Origin: Prevotella sp. E13-27 | Lineage (GTDB): Bacteria > Bacteroidota > Bacteroidia > Bacteroidales > Bacteroidaceae | Assembly (NCBI RefSeq): GCF_023217965.1 | Contig: NZ_JALPSC010000002.1 | Location: 992,001 to 1,056,000, forward strand | Reading direction: 5' to 3' | DNA length: 64,000 nucleotides | In this document: piece after piece, positions 271 to 24,523 of the stretch | Layout of the letters: every line of letters starts with the position of its first letter | Position numbering within the stretch: position 1 is the first letter of the stretch | Position numbers and translations under genes: made by a program | Notes under the pieces: model-generated | What the model saw: the letters and a program-made list of their open reading frames with translations, nothing else | Told to the model about the DNA's origin: nothing | Database searches by the model: none

Positions 271-813
271 ATGGCAAAGATTTATGATTTCAAGGCTCAG
301 ACGAGCAGAGGTAAGGAGATTGATTTCTCACAGTTTCATGGTAAGGTATTGCTGGTGGTGAACACGGCAAGCAAGTGTGGATTCACGCCTCAGTTCGCCG
401 GACTGGAGGAGCTGAACCAGAAGTATAAGGACAAAGGACTGGTGATTATCGGTTTCCCCTGTAACCAATTCAAGGAGCAGGATCCTGCTGATGACAGCAA
501 AATTGAAGAGTTCTGTCAACTGAACTATGGTGTGACCTTCCAGATTATGAAGAAAGGTGATGTCAATGGTCCCAATGCCCAGCCAATCTTCGAGTATCTG
601 AAGGCTCAGGCTCCCACCGAGGAGTACAACGGTCTGAAGGCCAAAGCTGCCAAGACGCTCTTCAAGGCTATCAGCAAGAGTGTGGAGAAGGACAGTGACA
701 TCAAGTGGAATTTCACAAAGTTCCTGATTTCGAAGGACGGTGAGACCATCAAACGCTATGCGCCAACCACAGAACCTAAAGACTTCGAGAAGGACATTGA
801 GGCCATGTTATAG
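271..813 (+). CDS. glutathione peroxidase family protein
   Basis: A 180-residue thiol peroxidase that reduces hydrogen or organic peroxides, in bacteria usually at the expense of thioredoxin. The family residues are visible: Cys36 in NTASKCGFTP, Gln70 in the FPCNQFKEQDP block, and Trp146-Asn147 in WNFTKF. Cys replaces selenocysteine, as is usual in bacteria. The start at 271 (MAKIYDF) matches the family's N-terminus; an in-frame upstream start at 226 would read through the operator. The OhrR-type regulator begins 17 bases downstream, which suggests co-transcription and peroxide control. There is no signal peptide, so it is probably cytoplasmic. Confidence 0.95.
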   Translation: MAKIYDFKAQTSRGKEIDFSQFHGKVLLVVNTASKCGFTPQFAGLEELNQKYKDKGLVIIGFPCNQFKEQDPADDSKIEEFCQLNYGVTFQIMKKGDVNGPNAQPIFEYLKAQAPTEEYNGLKAKAAKTLFKAISKSVEKDSDIKWNFTKFLISKDGETIKRYAPTTEPKDFEKDIEAML

Positions 814-830
814 TAATAAGGTAAGGAACT

Positions 831-1280
831 ATGCACGAAGAATTGCGACTCGATAAGCAAATTTGCTTCCGTCTCTATACGGCAGCACGACTCATCACAC
901 AGGCCTACACGCCGATGCTGAATGAGTTGGGTATCACCTACCCTCAGTATCTCGTTCTAATGGTACTTTGGGAGCAGGATTCCCAGCCTGTGAACGACAT
1001 AGCCCATCGGTTGTTGCTCGAAACGAACACCGTTACGCCGCTGCTTCAGCGCATGGAGAAGCTTGGCATCGTGGTTCGTAAGCGTGGCAAGGAGGACAAG
1101 CGACAACAGATAGTATCGCTGACTGCAAAGGGCAAGGCGATGGAGGAACAGGCCTACGCCATCATCCCTACAGGCATGGGCAAAGAGCTTAAAGCTTGCC
1201 CCTTCCAACTGGACGACTATGCCAAGTTTGCCAGTGAACTCGACACGATTATCGAAACATTAAAGAATAAGGAGAAATAG
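831..1280 (+). CDS. MarR family regulator, OhrR-type peroxide sensor
   Basis: A 149-residue winged-helix repressor. Its N-terminus reads LDKQICFRLYTAAR, placing Cys12 where OhrR proteins carry their reactive peroxide-sensing cysteine. It is followed by the family's TYPQYLVLMVLWE segment, the recognition region (NTVTPLLQRMEKLG) and a wing with KRGKEDKRQ. Members of this subfamily bind palindromic DNA and release it when the cysteine is oxidised. The adjacent peroxidase and the palindromes at 81-253 suggest autoregulation of the operon. Specificity for organic hydroperoxides is inferred from the subfamily. Confidence 0.9.
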   Translation: MHEELRLDKQICFRLYTAARLITQAYTPMLNELGITYPQYLVLMVLWEQDSQPVNDIAHRLLLETNTVTPLLQRMEKLGIVVRKRGKEDKRQQIVSLTAKGKAMEEQAYAIIPTGMGKELKACPFQLDDYAKFASELDTIIETLKNKEK

Positions 1281-1284
1281 AATT

Positions 1285-1470
1285 ATGGCACAACCATGTG
1301 AGAATTGCAAATTAAGAGCACATTACGAGAAGAATCCCAAGTCACTGATGGGCCGCTTCTGGCGTTGGCACATCAATTTCTGCCCAGGTTGGAAGGCATA
1401 TTTCACTAGTCTGGACGAAGAAAAGAAGTCGGAGCTGAGGAAAAAGTACCAATTCACGAAGTATCAGTAA
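1285..1470 (+). CDS. small Cys-containing conserved protein
   Basis: A 61-residue soluble protein. It begins MAQPCENCKLRAHYEK with a CxxC pair at residues 5 and 8, has a further Cys in INFCPGW, and ends in a basic helix. I do not recognise a named function. It starts four bases after the regulator and nine bases before the 4Fe-4S membrane protein, so it is in the same operon. The CxxC pair may bind metal. A truncated paralogue with the same N-terminus (KYPCESCKLRAAYDK) lies at 28750-28851, which supports this reading frame as a real gene. Confidence 0.75.
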   Translation: MAQPCENCKLRAHYEKNPKSLMGRFWRWHINFCPGWKAYFTSLDEEKKSELRKKYQFTKYQ

Positions 1471-1479
1471 ACATTGAAT

Positions 1480-2178
1480 ATGGCACAGAAACGATTCCAT
1501 AGACATTTCGAGACTCCAGGGCTGCCGCTCTACTGGATCATCATCGCCTACATCATCCTCGGCTGGTTTTTCCCAGTGATTGGCCTGTTGGCCATCATCT
1601 GTATGATCGGCCCTGTGGTGACGAGCATCTTTAAAGGTCGCTGGTGGTGCGGACATGTGTGTCCTCGTGGCAATATGTACGACAGATTGCTCTCGAAGTA
1701 TTCACCCCATCGTCCGATTCCCAAGTTTGTGCGAACCTTCGGCTTTCGTCTGTTCATGGTGTTCTTCATCTTCACTATGTTTGGCATACAACTAAGCTTT
1801 GTGCCTTGGAGCGAGGGTGGACTTCCCATGTGGGCTGGTATAGGCAAGGTCTTCTGGACAATTATCGTCATGACTACCATCGTTGGTGTCACGCTTTCTT
1901 TCATCTATGCACCACGCACATGGTGTTCGTTCTGTCCAATGGGAACCATCTCCAACTGGGTAGCACCTAAGAAAGCTCCACTGCCAAAAGCATTCACGAA
2001 CATCCACGTGTCGAGTGCCTGTCAGATGAAATGCAAGCAGTGCGCCCGCGTCTGCCCGATGCAGCTCACGCCCTACGACTCTCGCGGCGAGGTAATCGGC
2101 TATCTGCATCCTGACTGCCTGAAGTGCGGTAAGTGCGTATTAGCTTGTCCCACGAAGATTATGACATTGAAACATTAA
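1480..2178 (+). CDS. membrane-bound 4Fe-4S ferredoxin-type protein
   Basis: A 232-residue polytopic protein of the NapH/NosR-like group. Hydrophobic segments occupy about residues 15-50, 80-105 and 115-145. Cys motifs occur after the first block (WWCGHVCPRG) and after the last (WCSFCPMGT). Two ferredoxin clusters follow: CQMKCKQCARVCP and CLKCGKCVLACP. It probably passes electrons across or along the inner membrane. The start is taken at ATG 1480; a TTG two codons upstream is less likely. The thioredoxin gene follows by four bases, suggesting a redox relay for the peroxidase operon, which is an inference. Confidence 0.88.
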   Translation: MAQKRFHRHFETPGLPLYWIIIAYIILGWFFPVIGLLAIICMIGPVVTSIFKGRWWCGHVCPRGNMYDRLLSKYSPHRPIPKFVRTFGFRLFMVFFIFTMFGIQLSFVPWSEGGLPMWAGIGKVFWTIIVMTTIVGVTLSFIYAPRTWCSFCPMGTISNWVAPKKAPLPKAFTNIHVSSACQMKCKQCARVCPMQLTPYDSRGEVIGYLHPDCLKCGKCVLACPTKIMTLKH

Positions 2179-2182
2179 GATT

Positions 2183-2503
2183 ATGGAGAATATCAAAGAT
2201 TATCAGCAATATCTCAGAGGCTACAACTATACAGGAGTTACGCCTGTCATTATTGATTTCTACGCCACATGGTGCGGCCCTTGTCAGGCTATGGCTCCCA
2301 TGCTTAAACGTTTGGCGCAAGAATATGAAGGCAGAATCAAGGTTTTGAAGGTCGATGTTGACAAGAACCAGGCACTTGCAGCAGCAGCCCGCATCCAGTC
2401 GATACCTACGCTGTTCTTCATTACGAAAGACGGTCAGATAGAGCGTCAGGTCGGCGGTCTGCCTTTTCAGGAACTGGTAAGGCTGGCTATGCGGATTATG
2501 TAA
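2183..2503 (+). CDS. thioredoxin
   Basis: A 106-residue single-domain thioredoxin with the active site WCGPC (Cys31 and Cys34), the cis-Pro region SIPTLFFI and the C-terminal GG turn. There is no signal peptide, so it should be cytoplasmic. It is the fifth gene in the peroxidase-OhrR operon and is a plausible electron donor to the peroxidase, because bacterial GPx homologues commonly use thioredoxin. A broken DUF4112 gene follows. Confidence 0.95.
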   Translation: MENIKDYQQYLRGYNYTGVTPVIIDFYATWCGPCQAMAPMLKRLAQEYEGRIKVLKVDVDKNQALAAAARIQSIPTLFFITKDGQIERQVGGLPFQELVRLAMRIM

Positions 2504-2537
2504 TTGTAAGATGCAAATGAACAAAGACGAGAAGCGT

Positions 2538-2572
2538 GCGCTCGGCTCTGCCGCTTTGCATCGCAAAGAACT
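2538..2572 (+). repeat. 35-base double-hairpin repeat, copy 1
   Basis: Two adjoining hairpins with 3-base loops: CGGC-TCT-GCCG followed by CTTTGC-ATC-GCAAAG. A reverse-strand copy of the same length lies at 21988-22022, with about 32 of 35 bases identical. All the differences fall in the loops. Confidence 0.7.
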
Positions 2573-2594
2573 GCGGTGCAAGCGGCTGATGGAG

Positions 2595-2637
2595 AAGGGA
2601 GGGTCCACGATGTTGATAACATCGGGGAGGGTACCAG
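2595..2637 (+). repeat. dispersed palindromic repeat, copy A
   Basis: AAGGGAGG, a short spacer, then the palindrome CGATGTTGATAACATCG (2608-2624) and GGGAGGGTACCAG. It lies inside the broken DUF4112 gene. Other copies are at 21808, 22046 (reverse), 27663 and 28795. The spacer is one base shorter here, which changes the reading frame through the repeat. Confidence 0.85.
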
Positions 2638-3174
2638 GCCTATCAGACGATGAACAGTTTGACGCGCTACATGGATAGATACTATCTCGATGCACTTATT
2701 GGCATCATTCCTGGTTGGGGTGATGCCATTGCCTCGCTCAGCGTTGTGCCGTTCGTCTATTTCTCGTCGAGAGTCATCAAGAGCATTCCTCTTACATTGG
2801 CCGTCCTGAATAATGCCCTCCGTGATGTGCTGATGGGTATGATTCCTTTTTTCGTTGGCGACGTTATCGATTTCTTCCATCGAGCCAACATCTAGAACAT
2901 GCAGATGATTCAGGGTTTCGTTGACGGTGACGAGGCCATCATCAAGCAGGTGAACCAAAGAGCGTGGCAGTCAGCCATCGTCCTCATCATCCTTCTGCTG
3001 CTCATAGCCATGATGATATGGGCACTCATCAGCTTCGGCAGCTACCTATATTCATTGGTAGCATCTATCTTCTGAACTGTCAATGTTAAACTGGATTTAA
3101 TAAATTGTCAGCGTTGTTTAATCAAGTTTAAATTTGATGCCATAATGACCTTTTCGGCGTGCCACTTTGTCATT

Positions 3175-3189
3175 CGGCACGTATATTGC
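3175..3189 (+). promoter_or_regulatory. sigma-54-like -24/-12 promoter of hsp20 copy 1
   Basis: CGGCAC-GTATA-TTGC has GG at 3176-3177 and GC at 3188-3189, exactly ten bases apart, as sigma-54 promoters require. It lies about 90 bases before the gene. The two paralogous leaders keep the -24 half (TGGCAC) but not the GC of the -12 half. Confidence 0.5.
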
Positions 3190-3276
3190 TTTTAGCATGG
3201 TGAGAGCCGGAGCTTAAAAGGCAAAGGAACTCAGAACATACGTTAAACTAAAAAGTATAATTAGGAGGTATTGATT

Positions 3277-3699
3277 ATGTTACCAGTAATGTTTCAGAAC
3301 AGTTGGATGCCAACAGTATTTGAGGATTTCTTGAACAATGATTGGATGCCTCGTGCCAACAGTACAGCACCCGCAGTCAATGTCAAGGAGACAGACAAGA
3401 GCTATGTAATGGAACTTGCAGCTCCAGGCATTAAGAAAGAATATTGCCGTGTGGCTATCAACGACGAGGGCAACCTCACCATCGCCATTGAGAACAAACA
3501 GGAGCACAAGCATGAGGACAGTCACCATCACTATCTGCGCCGTGAGTTCAGCTACTCAAACTACGAGCAGAACTACGTGCTGCCAGACGATGTAGTGAAA
3601 GATCAGATCTCTGCCAAGGTCGAGGACGGCATCTTGACAATCACCATGCCGAAGACCGAGCCGAAGGAGAAAGTCACCAAGGCCATTGAGGTCTCGTAA
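3277..3699 (+). CDS. Hsp20/alpha-crystallin small heat shock protein, copy 1
   Basis: A 140-residue ATP-independent holdase. The alpha-crystallin domain covers roughly residues 28-140 (APAVNVKETDKSYVMELAAPG ... VEDGILTITMPKTEP), including the conserved DGxLxI motif. The usual C-terminal IxI/V tail is reduced to KAIEVS. The start at ATG 3277 is set by AGGAGG at 3263-3268, an unusually good ribosome site for a Bacteroidetes gene. Near-identical paralogues occur at 17433 and 24098; the N-terminal ~10 residues differ here. It is followed by an intrinsic terminator. Confidence 0.95.
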   Translation: MLPVMFQNSWMPTVFEDFLNNDWMPRANSTAPAVNVKETDKSYVMELAAPGIKKEYCRVAINDEGNLTIAIENKQEHKHEDSHHHYLRREFSYSNYEQNYVLPDDVVKDQISAKVEDGILTITMPKTEPKEKVTKAIEVS

Positions 3700-3728
3700 C
3701 GGACATTGATTAACCGCATAAATAAAGG

Positions 3729-3762
3729 GAGCAGCATCACTATCGGTGTTGCTCTTTTTTTT
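3729..3762 (+). terminator. intrinsic terminator after hsp20 copy 1
   Basis: GAGCAGCATCAC pairs with GTGTTGCTC around a TATCG loop, followed by eight T residues. Confidence 0.8.
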
Positions 3763-3811
3763 ATGATAGAGTTCTTTTATTACAGATAATTTTAGTACCT
3801 TTGCAGCCAGA

Positions 3812-4219
3812 ATGAGACGGACTCTGATAACTGCAAAAATACTAACGGCTCTTTGCGCCGTTTGCTTGACGGTTTTGCTAAACTGGCAAAGCCATAATGA
3901 TGCGGCTGTCACAGAATCCTATCAGCATCGCCAATCGTCCGTCCTGGCTCCGCAACATCAGCATCAACAGGAAGCCACACTGACAGATGCCTCGCAAATA
4001 TACCGCATCTGCAGTTCCCGTCCTCAGCGTGTCCTTCCTACCCAAGGTTCCAAGACGGAAAGAACCGTCACGCCCTTTGGCAGTTTTGCCAACCGGCAGC
4101 ATCAAGTCACACCCATTTATTCCTACTACGACAGCAGATGCCGTCTGGAAACGGCTCCCTTCTGCCTGTCGGCCTCGTGCGACTATTACGTCATCGCACT
4201 GAGGCACATCATTCGTTGA
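3812..4219 (+). CDS. hypothetical protein with N-terminal membrane anchor
   Basis: A 135-residue protein with a basic start and one hydrophobic segment (ILTALCAVCLTVLLNW), then a His/Gln/Ser-rich hydrophilic region. No family is recognised. A good -7 box (TACCTTTG, 3796-3803) lies only nine bases before the ATG, which supports expression from a near-leaderless transcript. Its hydrophilic part is of low complexity and could be decayed. Confidence 0.5.
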   Translation: MRRTLITAKILTALCAVCLTVLLNWQSHNDAAVTESYQHRQSSVLAPQHQHQQEATLTDASQIYRICSSRPQRVLPTQGSKTERTVTPFGSFANRQHQVTPIYSYYDSRCRLETAPFCLSASCDYYVIALRHIIR

Positions 4220-4322
4220 CATAATTGTCTGTTATCACAGGGACACACGCATTTTTATTCACATTATTTATTTAAACAGATAACCATCCGGCCATAAAAA
4301 CCGGATAGATACCGTAACAACT

Positions 4323-9190: not shown

Positions 9191-10462
9191 TTATTTGAGT
9201 TTGATAACATCACTCCAACGGGTCGTTGGATTCTTACTCCTGAAATCGTGCTTGATAGCATTGGCAAAGACTTCTGCCTTTCCCTTGCCGTTTTTCTGAG
9301 TATATTGCTGGGCACCAATGACAATGGTCTCTGAGCCGTGCATGCGGTTGATGCGGTCTATCACTTCATCGAGACGGCGCATCTTCTGAATCTGTTCAGC
9401 ATTCAGGTCGAACAAGTCTTGCTGGATAGAGCTGTCTGGTGAGATACCCATCACGATGACACCTGCTTTCTTATACTGATAACCCTGAATAAAGATGCGG
9501 TCGAGCACATCGTGAGCAGCCTGAACAATGGGAATCGTTGAACTGGTTGGTGTGACAAGGCGCAGTTCCTGAAAGTTCCAGTATTGTGCAAGGTCTTCAC
9601 GGAAGGCATTGGTGTTGACGAATACGCCAACGGTGGTGGCTACTGTCTTCTGAGTTCTCAGCTTCTCGGCACAACGGGCTGCATAGTTGGCAATGTGAGT
9701 GCGCAGGGTGTCCTTGTCGCTGATCATACCGTTGAACGATCGGCTGGTGCAGATGCTCTTCTTCTTAGCCAGTTCTTCGTTAGGCACAGCATCTTCGCCG
9801 TTCAGTTCCTGCCACGTGCGCACGATGTTGATGTTATTGAACGTCTGTCGTACCCAATCCTTGTGATGCTTGGCAAAGTCGAGGGCTGTCTTGTAACCTA
9901 ATGACTGAAGTTTGGCAGCATAGCGTCTGCCGATGCCCCAGACATCCTCGATGGGACACCATTCCAGCGCCTTCTCCCGTTTGTAGTCCGTATCAATCAT
10001 GCAGCAATGCTTATAGGCTGCATATTTCTTCGCCAGTTTCGAGGCAATCTTCGCCAGTGTCTTGTTGGGAGCCAATCCGATGCTGATTGGAAGGCCCACC
10101 TCACGCTTCACTCGCTTGTGCAGGTTCTCGCCCCACGTCTGCAACCTATCCAACTCAATGCCGTCAAGATACATGAAGCATTCATCAATCGAGTAGCGGA
10201 AATAGGCAGGTGTTTCTTGTCGGATGATGCTTACCACACGGCCCGTCAACTCTCCGTAGAGTTCGTAGTTGGAAGAAAATACGGCAATCTTCTGTCCAGG
10301 GAATAACTCTGCCAACTGAAAATACGGTGTACCTTCCTTGATGCCCATCTTCTTAGCCTCATTGGAACGAGCCACTACGCAACCGTCGTTGTTGCTCAAT
10401 ACCACAATCGGTTTCCCCTCCAAATCAGGACGGAAAACCTTCTCGCATGAGCAGTAGCAGTT
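9191..10462 (-). pseudogene. umuC: DNA polymerase V catalytic subunit, 3' part (disrupted umuC)
   Basis: Y-family translesion polymerase. It begins at NCYCSCEKVFRPDLEGKPIVVLSNNDGC and contains the palm motif YSIDECFMYLD with two catalytic acidic residues, a helix-hairpin-helix region (VWGIGRRYAAKLQSLG) and the little-finger domain. The first ten codons, including the third catalytic Asp (GIADLDNC), are about 3.9 kb away at 14369-14398, beyond an inserted recombinase element. The remaining frame has no ATG at its head; the first candidate start is TTG 10423. As it stands the product should be inactive. Precise loss of the element would restore the frame. Confidence 0.88.
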
Positions 10463-10488
10463 GTTATTGATAATTAGTAATAATAACT

Positions 10489-10571
10489 GTTATTCCGAAT
10501 AATTCTTTATTCCGAATTGTCTGAAAAAGTAATTCTGCATTTACTCAGTTTACAAGATTAATTCGGAATAA
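10489..10571 (+). repeat. left terminus of the recombinase element
   Basis: TTATTCCGAAT occurs at 10490-10500 and again at 10507-10517 (17 bases apart), with an inverted copy ATTCGGAATAA at 10561-10571. The right terminus mirrors this layout, so these are probably recombinase binding sites. Confidence 0.85.
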
Positions 10572-10637
10572 CATAATAGTAAAATAGCCATCTTTTCAGT
10601 TTCTGGGATAGGGACCCCCTAATGGTAAACAGCCATC

Positions 10638-11672
10638 CTAAAGACCTAATAATCCTCTTAGTCCTCCTTGTATTTTATATTTCTTGGGCTGGTCAAGAGG
10701 CATATATTCCCTTTTTCTTAAGGCTGTTTCCAACTCTTCACGACTTATCCCAAGATATACACGGGTCGTTTCGAGACTGGCATGGCCAAGATATTCTGAA
10801 ATCATGGCGATGTTTATCCCGTCCATGAACCAATGCGTTGCTGCGGAATGGCGAATCTGATGACTATGCATCTTCAAGGGTATTTCCGGACAGGTCTTAT
10901 GTGCAGTGTAGGAAATGGCGTATAGTCTGGTGTTCACTGCATCAGCGGACATCTTTTCCGTTCGGCCCTTATGGCTTGAATGGAACAGATATGTCTTAGC
11001 ATCATACGGAATAGAGAAATATGCAATATATGCCTTGAGTGTGTTCACGGTTTTCTCAGAAAGTATGAGGCAACGGTCTTTATTACCTTTTCCTTTGACA
11101 ATGACATAGGGGGATCCGTGGTCCAGTATGAGGTCGCAAGTCTTAACGGACAGGACTTCACCGACTCTACAGCCTGTGTCATACATGAATGAGAAAAGTG
11201 CATAGTCGCGCTTTCCTGCTATAGTGTTGCAATCAATACTGGCAAAAAATGCTTTCATCGCCACTTTACTCAGAGGTGCGACGACTTTGCCTCTTCCGTG
11301 AGAAATCATCGGTATCTCGCAGGACTCTATGTACCTTTTCGCATATGCTATATCACGGGACTGAAGATATTTCAGGAGTGACCTTATCACTGTTAGCCTG
11401 TGATCCCTCGTACGGCGACTGCATGGTTTCCCTCCACGTCCATTTTGTAACCAGATCAGCCAGCTTTCCACAGTCTCACGGCTAAAACATATATCACTAA
11501 AACTGTCGACTGTGACAGATTTCTTTTCTTCCAAATATTCCACATAGAGGCGCATTACCTGCTTGTATGACATAACTGTTTGGACAGAATATCCACATGT
11601 CTTGGGAATATATACTTTCAGCCAAAGGTCTATATGACTGACAAGTTCTTTTGCTTGCTTAGATATTTTCAT
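10638..11672 (-). CDS. tyrosine recombinase (third recombinase of the element)
   Basis: A 344-residue XerC/D-like integrase. It has an N-terminal SAM-like core-binding domain (about 10-120) and a catalytic domain with Arg in TGCRVGEV, Lys in VKGKGNKDR, HSHQIRHSAATH, LGHAS and the nucleophile Tyr in TTRVYLG. All catalytic residues are present. Its start overlaps the end of the larger recombinase ORF by 14 bases, indicating translational coupling. It corresponds to the last gene of a RIT element. Confidence 0.92.
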   Translation of the reverse strand: MKISKQAKELVSHIDLWLKVYIPKTCGYSVQTVMSYKQVMRLYVEYLEEKKSVTVDSFSDICFSRETVESWLIWLQNGRGGKPCSRRTRDHRLTVIRSLLKYLQSRDIAYAKRYIESCEIPMISHGRGKVVAPLSKVAMKAFFASIDCNTIAGKRDYALFSFMYDTGCRVGEVLSVKTCDLILDHGSPYVIVKGKGNKDRCLILSEKTVNTLKAYIAYFSIPYDAKTYLFHSSHKGRTEKMSADAVNTRLYAISYTAHKTCPEIPLKMHSHQIRHSAATHWFMDGINIAMISEYLGHASLETTRVYLGISREELETALRKREYMPLDQPKKYKIQGGLRGLLGL

Positions 11673-14199
11673 CGCTGTAAAAGTTTGAACGGTCTAATAA
11701 TATGTCATTGAAAGTCTCAGCCTTGGCAGCCTTTATGTGCTCGGCCATCTTCGGGGTAAAATTGTAATAATACATCGTCATTTTGAAACTCGCATGCCCC
11801 ATGCTTCTTGACAAGTAGGCAATGTGCTTGTTGAACAGTGCAGAATCAGCAGGGAGGCCATTGATGTTCTCTGTGGCATATCGATGTCTGAAATCATAGG
11901 CCACGGCATGTTCTTTGTTAAATTCATACCAACATTTTTGGAAATTGTAATCAACCCATTTCACGCTATGGTGCTCGTCTGTGGAAGTCGGGAAAAAGCA
12001 CTTCCTTTTTGGTACGAGTCTCTCTATAGCTTTATCATATTCCATAAGCATTTTAAGCATTGAAGGATGGAGGGCCACCCGGTGCTCCACATACCCTTTC
12101 GTATGCCTGACATTGATGATGCCGTTTTTTAAATCCACGTCCTTTGTGTCAAGCAGACGTGCCTCAAATGTTCTCAGCCCGGAGGAGAGCAATAGCAAGA
12201 AATATATGGGCAGAGATAGTTTTGTGATTTCTGATTCAGGAGAGTCCTTAATTGTCAGGTGAGATAGCGAGAAAAAGAAATTGCACAGTTCGGATTCCGT
12301 AAATGCATGGGGCTTCTTCAGCAGAGTCTCTGTCTTCGGTCTTGTCGTAAGGACAGGACAACAAAACGTCCCATATCCCCTTCTATGGAGAAACTTGAGA
12401 AATGTACGTAACTCACTTACCCTCTTTGCTTTGGTACAGGCATTCTCCGAACTTTTCTGCATGCACCATCCGTCAATGATTTCCTGACAGAGATCTTTGC
12501 TGTCAGGAAAATTCACAAGACAGAATCTGTCGAAGTCATACAAATGATAGGATGCATAATAAGTGGGACTCCCCTTACATGTTTTCTTGTAATCCATGTA
12601 TTCAAGGATATAAGGAGCGGCACAGCTGACAGGTATGGCATTCAAGAATTGCTTCTTTTTTGTCGGGACCTCATTGTTTGGAACAGTTGGTACATCGCAT
12701 CCTCCCTCATGTAGGTATCGCAGGAAGCCTCTGATGCCTTGTATCCTGTGTTTGTAATAGTCTGCTGATTCTTTGGGAAAGGGTTGCATCCATAATCTAA
12801 GGATCTCAAACATACTGTTACCAATGCTCGTATCACATTCTTGGCAGAAGCTATCAAACGAGTGAAAAGCAATGTTCTTCAGATATGACCATTTGCAGGA
12901 ATTGAAAGATTCTTGCCGGTATTGCGTGAGTATCTCGGAGAATCTGCATTTGAATGGCTCCATTGTAGGTAATACTTTAATGTAAGAACTGATGTCTAAA
13001 GCACACCCCCTCAAATTCTCAATATCTGCATCTATATATGGATTCAGGGATTCCAAGCTCACATGCCCCATCAGTTCACGGACAGTGTTCCTTTCTACAT
13101 CATTCTCTATCAATGAAAGTGCAAAAGAATGTCTCATTGTATGTAGTCCTTGATTCCGCCCTGTTTCCTGTCTAATGCCAGTCTTTTTAAATATGTCACG
13201 AGCAATGTGTGAGATGCGTTTATGCTTTTGTCCACAGTAGGGCTTATTCGTTTCCACAAAGATGTTGTCTGTATTACATGTCGGACGTTCCGACAGTATA
13301 TAGTCCGCGATGGCATTGCCGATGACCGATAACAGTGGAATTCGTATTTCTGTTCCCGTCTTTTGTTGGACGAACCGAATCTCCTCCTTATCTACATCCA
13401 CGTCTTCGAATCTTAAATTGCTGATGTCACTCGCCCTCATTCCCATATAGAATGCCAGCATACCAATAGCCCTTTCCTTATAGGTCAGTGGCGTTTCTTC
13501 GCCGTTAAGACTTGCTGCTAAAATGTTGCACTCTTCCTTTGTAATGTAGTCAAACAGCTTTCTTTTGTGGGGGAATTCCGGAATCTTTGCCAAGAGCCTA
13601 TGACACTCACCATTCGGATACATTGCTTGACAAATTGTCAATACCCGCATAACATGTCGGCTCACATGATAGCTGTTATGTCTTCCATACCTATCTCCAA
13701 AAACGGTTCGCACCATATATTCCGAAATTTCGTCCAAATCCTTCGCTCCCAAACGCTGGATATCCAGCAACAGAGATGCCATGCAGCCAGCCATTGTTTG
13801 GATACTACCTTCTTTGATTCGTCCTTCCTCTCGCTCCTTCTTGACGTATCTGTCTATCAACAATTTGAATTCAGGAGAAAGTTTGTCATAAGCTTTGGGG
13901 GATAAAGTAAACATACAGAGTTTACCCGTGTCAGGAAAGAAAATACCCTCTTCTTCAAAAGCCTTGAAATGACCAATTAAACGACGGTAGTCACGAATAG
14001 AATCTTTCTTGTAAGGACGTCGGGCCATCAATGCAGAATAGGCCTTCTCATAGGTATTCAAACTCTTGTCATTTTCGACGATATCAAATAAACTCTTGGC
14101 TACATACTGATACTTCCCTATATAACCATCACCATAATTCCTTGCCCTTAGCTTTTCATAGAAAGTGGGAAGGAGAATTTTCAATTTTTCTATATCCAT
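11659..14199 (-). CDS. double tyrosine recombinase (two fused integrase units)
   Basis: An 846-residue ORF holding two complete recombinase units. Unit 1 (about 1-415) has Arg in MGMRASDI, HTMRHSFAL, MGHVSLES and Tyr in NPYIDAD. Unit 2 (about 416-846) has Arg in SGLRTFEARLL, Lys in RHTKGYVEHR, YDFRHRYAT, MGHASFK and Tyr in TMYYYNF. In known RIT elements these would be two separate genes; here they are joined at about VLPTMEPFKCR with no stop, and the Met there may be the former start of the second gene. It is followed by the overlapping third recombinase. Confidence 0.88.
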   Translation of the reverse strand: MDIEKLKILLPTFYEKLRARNYGDGYIGKYQYVAKSLFDIVENDKSLNTYEKAYSALMARRPYKKDSIRDYRRLIGHFKAFEEEGIFFPDTGKLCMFTLSPKAYDKLSPEFKLLIDRYVKKEREEGRIKEGSIQTMAGCMASLLLDIQRLGAKDLDEISEYMVRTVFGDRYGRHNSYHVSRHVMRVLTICQAMYPNGECHRLLAKIPEFPHKRKLFDYITKEECNILAASLNGEETPLTYKERAIGMLAFYMGMRASDISNLRFEDVDVDKEEIRFVQQKTGTEIRIPLLSVIGNAIADYILSERPTCNTDNIFVETNKPYCGQKHKRISHIARDIFKKTGIRQETGRNQGLHTMRHSFALSLIENDVERNTVRELMGHVSLESLNPYIDADIENLRGCALDISSYIKVLPTMEPFKCRFSEILTQYRQESFNSCKWSYLKNIAFHSFDSFCQECDTSIGNSMFEILRLWMQPFPKESADYYKHRIQGIRGFLRYLHEGGCDVPTVPNNEVPTKKKQFLNAIPVSCAAPYILEYMDYKKTCKGSPTYYASYHLYDFDRFCLVNFPDSKDLCQEIIDGWCMQKSSENACTKAKRVSELRTFLKFLHRRGYGTFCCPVLTTRPKTETLLKKPHAFTESELCNFFFSLSHLTIKDSPESEITKLSLPIYFLLLLSSGLRTFEARLLDTKDVDLKNGIINVRHTKGYVEHRVALHPSMLKMLMEYDKAIERLVPKRKCFFPTSTDEHHSVKWVDYNFQKCWYEFNKEHAVAYDFRHRYATENINGLPADSALFNKHIAYLSRSMGHASFKMTMYYYNFTPKMAEHIKAAKAETFNDILLDRSNFYSDENI

Positions 14200-14286
14200 A
14201 ATCTTCTAAAATAAAGTGGTTAATATATAAACGCTTAACTAACTTTATTAGCATAAGGATTAGAAGAATAATGAAATCAAGATTGT

Positions 14287-14369
14287 TTATTCCGAATAGA
14301 TTTCGTAGAAGTTTGCTATCTACAACACAGTAAATACTCAAATTCAGAATAACGAATTATTCGGAATAA
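14287..14369 (-). repeat. right terminus of the recombinase element
   Basis: Mirror image of the left end. ATTCGGAATAA is at 14359-14369, ATTCAGAATAA at 14342-14352 (again 17 bases apart), and the inverted copy TTATTCCGAAT at 14287-14297, the same 71-72 bases inward as on the left. Confidence 0.85.
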
Positions 14370-14398
14370 CAATTGTCCAAGTCGGCTATACCATACAT
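14369..14398 (-). pseudogene. umuC: first ten codons of umuC, cut off by the element
   Basis: The frame reads MYGIADLDNC, starting six bases after the umuD stop codon, and then runs into the element terminus. UmuC proteins begin MYGIADCDNCYCSCE-like, and the rest of the gene resumes with NCYCSCEKVF at 10462. This is direct evidence that an intact umuDC operon was split by the insertion. Confidence 0.85.
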
Positions 14399-14404
14399 CG
14401 TTTT

Positions 14405-14842
14405 CTATAGTTTTTCAAATGTACGAATCAGATGAATCACTGTTCCCCAAATCTGGAAGTTCTCAGGGTCTTTGACCTTGAAAACGGGATAATCAGGGTT
14501 GGCAGGACGCAGTTCGATGTAGCCATCCTTCCGATGTGTCAGGTCAAGGAACTTCATTGTGAAGCCACCATCCCACCATGCCACGACGATGGAGCCGTCA
14601 TGTGGTTCCATTGCCCTGTCGATAATCACGCGGTCACCATCCAACAGTCCTGCATCCTTCATCGAATCTCCCTCCACGTCACCATAGAACGAGGCTTCAG
14701 GATGACGGATATAGTCACGGTTAAAGTCCAGCGTCTCGTGCCTGTACTCGTCAGCCGGACTGGGAAAACCTGCCGCAACACCTGCATGTTCCAACTCCAG
14801 TTTGGTGTCAAATACACCTTTGATTATCTTAATGTTACCCAT
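14405..14842 (-). CDS. umuD: UmuD-type S24 peptidase (DNA polymerase V subunit)
   Basis: A 145-residue LexA-fold protein. It has the self-cleavage site Ala24-Gly25 in GVAAGFPSPADEY, the nucleophile Ser60 in VEGDSM and the general base Lys97 in FTMKFL; these positions equal those of E. coli UmuD. RecA-stimulated self-cleavage gives the UmuD' subunit of the translesion polymerase. It is transcribed from a -7 box at 14871-14878 (minus strand). Its partner umuC is split by the recombinase element immediately downstream. Confidence 0.95.
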   Translation of the reverse strand: MGNIKIIKGVFDTKLELEHAGVAAGFPSPADEYRHETLDFNRDYIRHPEASFYGDVEGDSMKDAGLLDGDRVIIDRAMEPHDGSIVVAWWDGGFTMKFLDLTHRKDGYIELRPANPDYPVFKVKDPENFQIWGTVIHLIRTFEKL

Positions 14843-14878
14843 AAATCCTAATAATTCTCAAAACATTCCGCAAAGTTA
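14843..14878 (-). promoter_or_regulatory. umuD promoter and leader
   Basis: On the minus strand, TAACTTTG (14871-14878) is followed by the leader GAGAATTATTAGGATTT immediately before the ATG. The same leader, at the same distance from a TACCTTTG box, precedes the TauE-like gene at 27486-27521. Confidence 0.65.
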
Positions 14879-14929
14879 GCGAAAATTCGGCATTTATTGG
14901 TAACTTTGTGCACATATTTAATTGAATTT

Positions 14930-15184
14930 ATGAGAAAAGCAAGTTTTATTTTGGCAGCAGCCATGTTGATGGTGTCAGCTGCGGTGATGGCTCAGCAGGC
15001 ATCAAAGGTGTATCTCACAAGGGAGATTTCACCAGAGTCGTTAGTAAAAATCTTCAAGGCACTGGGCGTGGAAGCCAAGGGCCGTGTGGCAGTGAAGATG
15101 TCAACAGGCGAAGGTATCGGCCTGGCTCTGATTATGGCAGGGGTGATAGTCATCAACCTATTTTCAAAAATGGAGGTACATTGA
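14930..15184 (+). pseudogene. chimera: DUF362 protein N-terminus joined to an SMR transporter C-terminus
   Basis: The 84-residue ORF begins with a signal peptide (MRKASFILAAAMLMVSAAVMA) and a DUF362-like segment (SKVYLTREISPESLVKIFKALGVEAKGRVAVKMSTGEG). It then switches at about residue 62 to GIGLALIMAGVIVINLFSKMEVH, which is the last helix of an SMR/EmrE multidrug transporter. Neither function can survive. It looks like the scar of a deletion that removed the rest of both genes. The promoter TAACTTTG at 14901-14908 belongs to the DUF362 gene. Confidence 0.65.
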
Positions 15185-17319: not shown

Positions 17320-17432
17320 ATTCTTTCCATAGGCATGTACTTTGCATTATCCTTAGTGAAAGTTGAAGCGAAAGCTGAAGCAATCAAGTAACAAATTGTC
17401 AAATTTAAAAATATAATTAGGAGGTATTGATT

Positions 17433-17858
17433 ATGTTGAACGGATTAATGAAAAGCAATGGTTGGTTCCCAACAATGTTTGATGATTTCTTTAACACTGA
17501 TTTCATGCCTCGTGCCAACAGTACAGCACCCGCAGTCAATGTCAAGGAGAGTGAGAAGGTCTACACGATGGAGCTTGCAGCCCCTGGCATCAAGAAAGAA
17601 TATTGCCGCGTAGGTATCAATGACGAGGGCAACCTTACCATCGCCATTGAGAACAAACAGGAACACAAGCAAGAGGACAAGCACCATCACTATCTGCGCC
17701 GCGAGTTCAGTTACTCGAACTACGAGCAGAGCTACACGCTACCGGATGATGTGGTGAAGGATCAGATCTCTGCCAAGGTCGAGGACGGCATCCTGACCGT
17801 CACGATGCCGAAGACCGAGCCGAAGCAGAAGGTCACCAAGGCCATCGAGGTTTCATAA
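17433..17858 (+). CDS. Hsp20/alpha-crystallin small heat shock protein, copy 2
   Basis: A 141-residue small heat shock protein almost identical to the 24098 copy. Both share the N-terminus MLNGLMKSNGWFPTMFDDFFNTDFMPRA; copy 1 differs at this end. The alpha-crystallin domain with VEDGILTVTMPKTEP is intact. AGGAGG at 17419-17424 sets the start at 17433. The leader (17227-17432), coding region and terminator all resemble those of copy 3, so the whole transcription unit was duplicated. Confidence 0.95.
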   Translation: MLNGLMKSNGWFPTMFDDFFNTDFMPRANSTAPAVNVKESEKVYTMELAAPGIKKEYCRVGINDEGNLTIAIENKQEHKQEDKHHHYLRREFSYSNYEQSYTLPDDVVKDQISAKVEDGILTVTMPKTEPKQKVTKAIEVS

Positions 17859-23984: not shown

Positions 23985-24097
23985 ATTCTTTCTGTAGGCA
24001 TGTACTTTGCTTATCTATAAGTGAAAGCCGAAGCAAACAAGCCGAGGCAATCAAGAACAAATAAGTTAAACTAAAAGTATAATTGGAGGTAAAAGTT

Positions 24098-24523
24098 ATG
24101 TTGAACGGATTGATGAAAAGCAATGGTTGGTTCCCAACAATGTTTGATGATTTCTTTAACACTGATTTTATGCCTCGTGCCAACAGTACAGCACCCGCAG
24201 TCAATGTCAAGGAGAGTGAGAAAGCCTACACGATGGAACTTGCAGCTCCAGGCATCAAGAAAGAATATTGCCGCGTAGCCATCAACGACGAGGGCTACCT
24301 CACCATCGCCATTGAGAACAAACAGGAACACAAGCATGAGGACAGTCACCATCACTATCTGCGCCGCGAGTTCAGCTACTCGAACTACGAGCAGAGCTAC
24401 ACGCTGCCTGATGATGTGGTGAAGGATCAGATTTCTGCCAAGGTTGAGGACGGCATCCTGACCGTCACCATGCCGAAGACCGAGCCGAAGCAGAAGGTCA
24501 CCAAGGCCATCGAGGTATCATAA
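24098..24523 (+). CDS. Hsp20/alpha-crystallin small heat shock protein, copy 3
   Basis: A 141-residue protein with the same N-terminus as copy 2 and the HKHEDSHHHYLRREFSYSNYEQ segment of copy 1. The three copies therefore differ as if sequence has been exchanged between them. The ribosome site GGAGG sits at 24085-24089. It lies just after the MFS pseudogene and is closed by a perfect terminator. The role is the same as the other copies: binding unfolding proteins in the cytoplasm. Confidence 0.95.
   Translation: MLNGLMKSNGWFPTMFDDFFNTDFMPRANSTAPAVNVKESEKAYTMELAAPGIKKEYCRVAINDEGYLTIAIENKQEHKHEDSHHHYLRREFSYSNYEQSYTLPDDVVKDQISAKVEDGILTVTMPKTEPKQKVTKAIEVS

Follow-up and report, generated by a model that had tools for sequence, protein, structure and literature searches.

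A recombinase-only element, probably a umuC-specific RIT, interrupts each of three umuC genes found in Prevotella sp. E13-27

The window analyzed here, a stretch of 64,000 nucleotides from the genome of Prevotella sp. E13-27 (contig NZ_JALPSC010000002.1, positions 992,001 to 1,056,000), contains a umuDC operon for the error-prone DNA polymerase V (Pol V) in which a mobile element, comprising a 3,880-bp body within a 3,912-bp unit, interrupts umuC at codon 10. The genome has two further umuC genes, and a copy of the element interrupts each of them at this codon, too. We consider it very probable that this is a umuC-site-specific member of the RITs, elements with a trio of tyrosine recombinases, in Bacteroidota, and that it would move as a circle via a double core site. 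Most likely it acts as a selfish element that resides in a dispensable gene of wide distribution, and regulated switching of umuC by the element appears possible.

The operon lies on the minus strand. Its first gene, umuD (14405..14842), is intact, as the first-pass annotation of this DNA had stated: the complete frame encodes the autoproteolytic Pol V subunit of the S24 peptidase family (PF00717, 3.4e-25; NF007621, 126.8 bits with a cut-off of 110). The ATG of umuC follows at 14398, six bases past the umuD stop, and the frame opens with MYGIADLDNC until it hits an inverted terminus at 14375, two bases into codon 10; the 5' stub (14370..14398, minus strand) reads MYGIADLDN(C). The frame picks up again 3.9 kb on, at 10462, as NCYCSCEKVF and stays open until a stop at 9191, and the sequence at these positions bears out the split that the annotation had described. 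This 3' part (9191..10462, minus strand) is 98% identical to an unbroken ortholog and matches PF00817, PF11799, and PF13438 within 9191-10423; it lacks codons 1-8 and with them the catalytic Asp of codon 6. This residue aligns with Asp7 of Dpo4-type polymerases, which we take to be a ligand of the catalytic metal. The earlier claim that a catalytic Asp is separated from the remaining frame holds, but it is the first metal-binding carboxylate in sequence order and not the third. Since the 3' part of umuC lacks this codon, Pol V made from the window operon should be inactive while the element is present.

That the element is an insertion into umuC follows from unbroken orthologs in relatives, which the annotation had suggested looking for. 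Among 30 umuC loci retrieved as the best matches of a longer list, 28 are unbroken, one is the window itself, and one (in genome G478) is cut by a contig end; the site was located by a pattern consisting of the core AAYTGYTAY and the following codons, and all 28 unbroken loci read through it as G-I-x-D-x-D-N-C-Y. In the nearest ortholog (genome G653), UmuC is 98% identical to that of the window and the flanking DNA shows 94-95% nucleotide identity to both sides of the insertion, with window segments 9197-10462 and 14367-15114 meeting with an overlap of 8 bp. These junctions and the unbroken ortholog lead us to predict, in line with the annotation, that precise excision would rejoin the frame. 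A strong UmuC match was found in 141 of 299 genomes of the genus and in 74 of the 131 that are at least 90% complete, which supports the view that umuC is a widespread yet probably dispensable target gene. As a separate observation, the 95%-identical umuC of G478 (locus L066) ends with its contig a few codons past the site, as if a copy of the element had broken the assembly.

A search of the 3.96-Mb, two-contig genome for Y-family polymerases returned four genes: the window umuC (W), two umuC-type genes on the other contig (copies A and B), and one distant gene. The element bodies in W and A are identical (3,880 bp each), and that in B (3,879 bp) lacks a single base, which breaks the frame of its 846-aa recombinase gene; copy B is also inserted in the opposite orientation to W and A. 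The element bodies are nearly identical, yet UmuC of copy A and UmuC of copy B share only approximately 79% identity with window UmuC, which indicates that the element has spread recently among distinct umuC genes of this genome. The umuC bodies of all three loci contain neither stops nor frameshifts. The fourth gene (C1:941328) is intact, codes for 504 aa with 23% identity to UmuC, and finds its best NCBIfam matches among Pol IV-type models, all below cut-off, with a weaker match to the UmuC model; by sequence it is a distant Y-family polymerase gene. When the genome was searched with a pattern describing how the umuC body begins, three places matched, all of them element junctions (0 matches for the reversed control). 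A second intact umuC elsewhere, which the annotation had named as a finding that would make the split irrelevant, is therefore rejected for this genome, given that both the Y-family search and the umuC-body pattern found only cut copies.

Beyond this genome, a DNA search of 398 genomes of the genus gave 10 with any match, of which 6, including E13-27 itself, hold element ends in umuC (the others being G443, G592, G526, G603, and G651); the remaining four (G150, G516, G648, and G670) were left out because their matches are short or weak and include no element end. All eight readable copies in these six genomes, one of them a decayed end (G651), lie at codon 9/10 of umuC, in both orientations: the end adjoining the umuC start is IRR in W, A, and G526 and IRL in B, G592, G603, and G651, while in G443 IRR faces the 3' part of umuC as it does in copy B. 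With the same cut in three umuC genes here and in five other genomes, chance is not a plausible explanation for the choice of codon. The element itself is rare: of 399 genomes sampled from the family and searched for the 846-aa protein, none but E13-27 has a close copy. Sequence identity of the element reaches 99% in G443 and likewise 99% over the remaining half in G592, whereas alignments of the umuD flank to the window stand at 70% for G526 (including approximately 130 bp of the element) and 77% for G603, a contrast that points to horizontal spread. A wider protein search, with scoring limited to the 7,986 candidates that had most words in common, gave seven hits: one cluster of 612 sequences that contains the 846-aa protein, one weak match, and five relatives (two partial) with 35-42% identity. 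Scans of viral contigs gave no match to the element, and ten records of a phage collection showed distant recombinase matches below 60% identity.

Several of these other copies are damaged or have lost their surroundings. G592 lacks the umuC body as well as half of the element; in G443, 31 umuC codons are followed by other sequence; and G651 has only a decayed end without an adjoining umuC body, but carries an unbroken umuC elsewhere in its genome. No umuC body was found in G526 (82% complete) or G603 (80% complete), in both of which the element lies at a contig end. The G443 locus (L041, 1-1690) deserves mention of its own, as the frame runs on in phase after the 31 umuC codons into a helicase-like mobile-element protein, either by rearrangement or in a chimeric contig.

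The genes of the element are almost exclusively recombinase genes. Its body (10490-14369, within the whole mobile unit 10464..14375) contains no frame longer than 112 aa other than two recombinase genes, smaller frames not having been searched, and to this extent the description of a recombinase-only element stands. Both genes lie on the umuC strand (minus) and overlap by 14 bp. The first (11659..14199) encodes an 846-aa fusion of a RitA-like (residues 1-410) and a RitB-like (residues 411-846) tyrosine recombinase with two PF00589 stretches, and the second (10638..11672) a RitC-like tyrosine recombinase of 344 aa (PF00589, 2.9e-28); NCBIfam models matched these proteins only below cut-off. Alignment places catalytic-type motifs including the Tyr in all three domains, with the complete series of Arg, HxxR, GH, and Tyr in the first and third. 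The left terminal inverted repeat (IRL, 10485..10518, plus strand) and the right one (IRR, 14341..14374, minus strand) each measure 34 nt, with 31 of 34 positions of IRR matched to IRL and its outer 5 bases inside the adjoining coupling sequence. Inverted copies of the end motif lie further inward on both sides, at 10554..10573 (minus strand, 20 nt, 90%), which is 46 nt inward of the IRL motif, and at 14287..14298 (plus strand, 12 nt, 100%), inward of IRR.

This architecture is that of a RIT. Elements of this class, as described for Cupriavidus pHG1 and for ritABC of strain CH34, combine three ordered tyrosine recombinases of the same direction with short overlaps, 34-bp terminal repeats, and several identical copies, and each of these features has its counterpart here, with RitA and RitB joined in one frame. 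Mobility is likewise suggested by the three near-identical copies and the unbroken orthologs, from which we infer movement. Taken in order, the RitA-, RitB-, and RitC-type domains correspond by sequence to the three members of a recombinase trio (L033) carried by a genome of the same family, with 35% identity between the RitC-like protein and the third protein of that trio. Their best matches on pHG1 are recombinases in first, second, and third position (E 1e-18, 4e-14, and 2e-32; 29% identity for the last), where the Rit labels of the pHG1 genes were assigned by gene order and the match of the second domain lies in a neighbouring gene pair and not in the same trio. RITs have been described as approximately 3,500 bp long, with identical copies in several genomes, an inverted repeat that a palindrome overlaps, and an insertion in radC (PMC3414803), and rit elements are reported to inactivate radC in C. 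metallidurans CH34 and Bordetella petrii (PMC2864759). PMC10214605 gives the terminal repeats of RITs as 34 bp long, and in its table, target specificity, empty sites, and movement are entered as not tested; the umuC element stands apart from these descriptions through its target at umuC codon 9/10, with specificity, empty sites, and end structure readable. We regard the umuC-specific RIT as a variant of the known kind. No report of a RIT in umuC was found in the literature searched, which did not cover the main RIT survey (Ricker 2013).

Other site-specific systems resemble the element in part. Strand-biased circularizing integrative elements (SE) and Tn554 share with it several tyrosine recombinases, target specificity, and a 6-bp coupling sequence carried between sites (as summarized in PMC10214605). 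The umuC element differs in that its recombinase genes are its only frames above 112 aa, which leaves no obvious tfp, srap, or tnpC gene; the SE gene set of intA, tfp, intB, and srap is accordingly missing at this frame size. Compared with Tn554 (TnpA, TnpB, and TnpC), we count three recombinase domains rather than two, going by the description of Tn554. Tyrosine-recombinase elements also interrupt umuC-type genes in Proteobacteria, namely the rulB integron-like elements and the ICEPan umuDC islands (PMC4542609, PMC4458695). The rulB elements differ in being 9.4-16.2 kb long with cargo and a 3-bp GAT repeat (PMC4542609), whereas a 6-bp core YAAYTG at codon 9/10 is found here. The Pantoea ICEPan islands differ in size (approximately 11-14 kb) and in their UmuC positions 88 and 37, with no codon-10 site mentioned in the accessible text of PMC4458695. 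SpyCIM1 in mutL is similar in that it occupies, site-specifically, the 5' end of a gene that affects mutation rate; it is a phage-like island with reported growth-dependent excision (PMC4689407), while excision of the umuC element is a prediction.

The junctions suggest how such specificity might be achieved. Read in the sense of umuC, the three complete copies share one layout: umuC start, GA and a 6-bp coupling sequence, the body between its inverted repeats, a second 6-bp sequence, a 20-bp spacer, a third 6-bp sequence, and the umuC body. In the window, the 5'-junction coupling sequence is CAATTG (14370..14375, minus strand), the inner one between IRL and spacer lies at 10484..10489, the imperfectly palindromic spacer with TTATT...AATAA arms at 10464..10483, and the 3'-junction coupling sequence CAACTG at 10458..10463 (minus strand). 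The spacer with its two flanking 6-bp cores (10458-10489) is present only on the 3' umuC side. The 6-mers that adjoin umuC are CAATTG, CAACTG, TAACTG, or TAATTG, and the same four occur in the 28 empty sites (11, 6, 5, and 6 times, respectively). The two junctions of one copy differ at the first base of the 6-mer in copy A and at the fourth base in the window, while copy B is uninformative. With respect to IRL and IRR, the order of the spacer is constant, yet in each of the four copies with a readable 3' umuC side (W, A, B, and G443), this is the side on which it lies, so it must be turned relative to umuC in copy B and G443.

In the mechanism we propose, the three recombinases would cut the element out as a circle of 3,912 bp, with IRL and IRR joined by 6, 20, and 6 bp, which places two facing core sites of the form AATAA-6 bp-TTATT around the 20-bp spacer. 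These core sites resemble the umuC target RAYAAYTGYTAY, the DNA for the conserved Asp-Asn-Cys-Tyr, and either of them could recombine with it. The choice between the two would set the orientation and would in both cases leave the spacer on the 3' umuC side. If both junctions stem from one circle, a single exchange would fall between bases 1 and 4 of the 6-mer. Insertion separates the codon for the catalytic Asp from the remainder of umuC, which should leave the Pol V of the operon inactive, and precise excision would restore the gene. An origin of copy B by simple inversion between the element ends was rejected, as the spacer is turned too, which fits integration of a circle via the other core site.

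Some observations weigh against this reading. The 12-mer GAYAAYTGYTAY has 12 matches in the genome, 3 at element junctions and 9 unoccupied, compared with 20 for its reversed control; we reject it as the target on its own, being neither rare nor consistently occupied, and because the core 12-mer is not a strong signal, further features of umuC are probably read as well. Both the circle and the excised umuC are deduced from junction sequence, and both junctions can be read only in the three copies of E13-27, with the other five genomes showing one side each. The RitB-like domain retains Arg, GH, and Tyr but has YxxR in place of HxxR, and its activity is uncertain because a Tyr stands where the first His is usual. 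Finally, RitA and RitB are fused into one protein of 846 aa, unlike the three separate proteins in the published descriptions of RITs.

The competing interpretation that survives best assumes permanent inactivation without excision, with a copy-out, copy-in element that spreads without leaving empty donor sites, as has been suggested in print for strand-biased circularizing elements. The coexistence of three near-identical copies agrees with it, as do coupling bases that seem to be carried between sites as in SE and Tn554 (PMC10214605). However, these data fit excision followed by repair or replication equally well, and the predicted circle joint with its 20-bp spacer between two core sites is unlike the single 6-bp joint of SE described there. 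We therefore hold this mode of spread to be possible but rather doubtful.

Less credible is the mutagenesis switch that the first-pass annotation had raised, according to which the element would be kept for the sake of a regulated, precise excision that activates Pol V on demand. The junctions permit exact restoration of umuC, the umuC bodies of this genome are free of stops and frameshifts, a single active copy could serve all three genes in trans, and SpyCIM1 in mutL of Streptococcus pyogenes provides a precedent (PMC4689407). Yet the copies are so recent that intact frames say nothing about selection, and ritAB of copy B is frameshifted. Copies that decayed or lost the umuC body also argue against a stable switch: in G592 and G443, the adjoining body is missing or rearranged, and of the element in G651 only a decayed end is left. 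The usual fate of the element looks like decay more than toggling, and we do not find the switch supported and think it unlikely. With the umuC body lost, rearranged, or not found, or the element decayed, in all five other genomes, we favour a parasite in a dispensable gene.

It would be a great surprise if a modified UmuC were in use instead. In the inverted orientation of copy B (L006, 2973-4268, minus strand), the spacer supplies an in-frame TTG that opens a umuC frame of 431 aa, the length of unbroken UmuC (L060), with the catalytic Asp missing and the rest kept; the product should be inactive as a polymerase without this residue, and in the orientation of W and A the first listed start lies within the gene. 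Misassembly of one real insertion into three umuC genes, to which identical long repeats are prone, can be dismissed for practical purposes in a two-contig genome where each copy has its own flanks and distinct coupling bases, copy B has the opposite orientation and a private 1-bp deletion, and five other assemblies show the same site.

Other recombinase trios of Bacteroidota show how far such target choice might extend. We retrieved 13 distant trio loci (L033-L040, L090, L098-L100, and L117) and examined the flanks of 11 (all but L090 and L098), for 8 of which a target gene could be named, leaving none for L038, L039, and L040; L039 and L040 hold the same trio (99.9% identical). Five trios (L033-L036 and L117, the latter on a human faecal contig) have a lysozyme-like gene as their target and lie at LAYNVGP or an equivalent motif, and of the two gene pieces of L034, one matches Phage_lysozyme above cut-off and one just below. 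In L037 and L099, from two families of the order and with the same ends, the trio lies in a methylase-helicase gene directly after DE(S/C)H (Helicase_C matched on the 3' piece of L037 and N6_Mtase on the 5' piece of L099). The trio of L100 (around 440-4300) interrupts an ArdC-like antirestriction gene before EELIAE, its two pieces matching a metallopeptidase profile up to and from position 77. L033, L034, and L100 have a 20-bp spacer with 6-bp neighbours, the same 6-20-6 ends as the umuC element. L035 and L036 are flanked by two inverted 3' halves of the lysozyme-like gene and L117 by two 5' halves, which might reflect exchange between two copies. Comparison of umuC and umuD with eleven trio loci (L090 and L117 not among them) gave no significant match.

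Targeting of gene families may be general among these trios, in a sample that is small because the elements of L033, L034, and L035 are at least 99% identical. A more far-reaching idea strikes us as improbable: that RITs as a class are gene-specific inactivators, each lineage reading the DNA of a conserved motif (the metal-binding motif of umuC, DE-S/C-H of the helicase, EELIAE of the ArdC-like protein, LAYNVGP of the lysozyme) via the double-core joint of its circle, with one umuC trio acting in trans on all umuC genes as a reversible, whole-genome on/off control of Pol V.

Apart from the umuC locus, the window contains three similar frames within 22 kb (3271-3699, 17427-17858, and 24083-24523) with the common stretch PRANSTAPAVNVKE, which look to us like small heat-shock proteins.

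RIT mobility has so far been inferred from copies, and a table of 2023 (PMC10214605) still carries the entry "not tested" for their choice of target, empty sites, and movement. Here, a single RIT lineage offers eight insertions at one codon, in both orientations, together with empty sites, precisely defined ends, and a candidate core site, which means that short DNA fragments can be used to test integration and excision of the umuC RIT directly. It shows that a poorly understood class of elements can be highly selective for its landing site, and, next to the known examples from Proteobacteria, it provides a Bacteroidota case of umuC-type genes being used for integration. For Prevotella sp. E13-27, it amounts to a natural multi-copy loss of an error-prone polymerase, in which a single kind of mobile element has entered all three umuC genes that were found.

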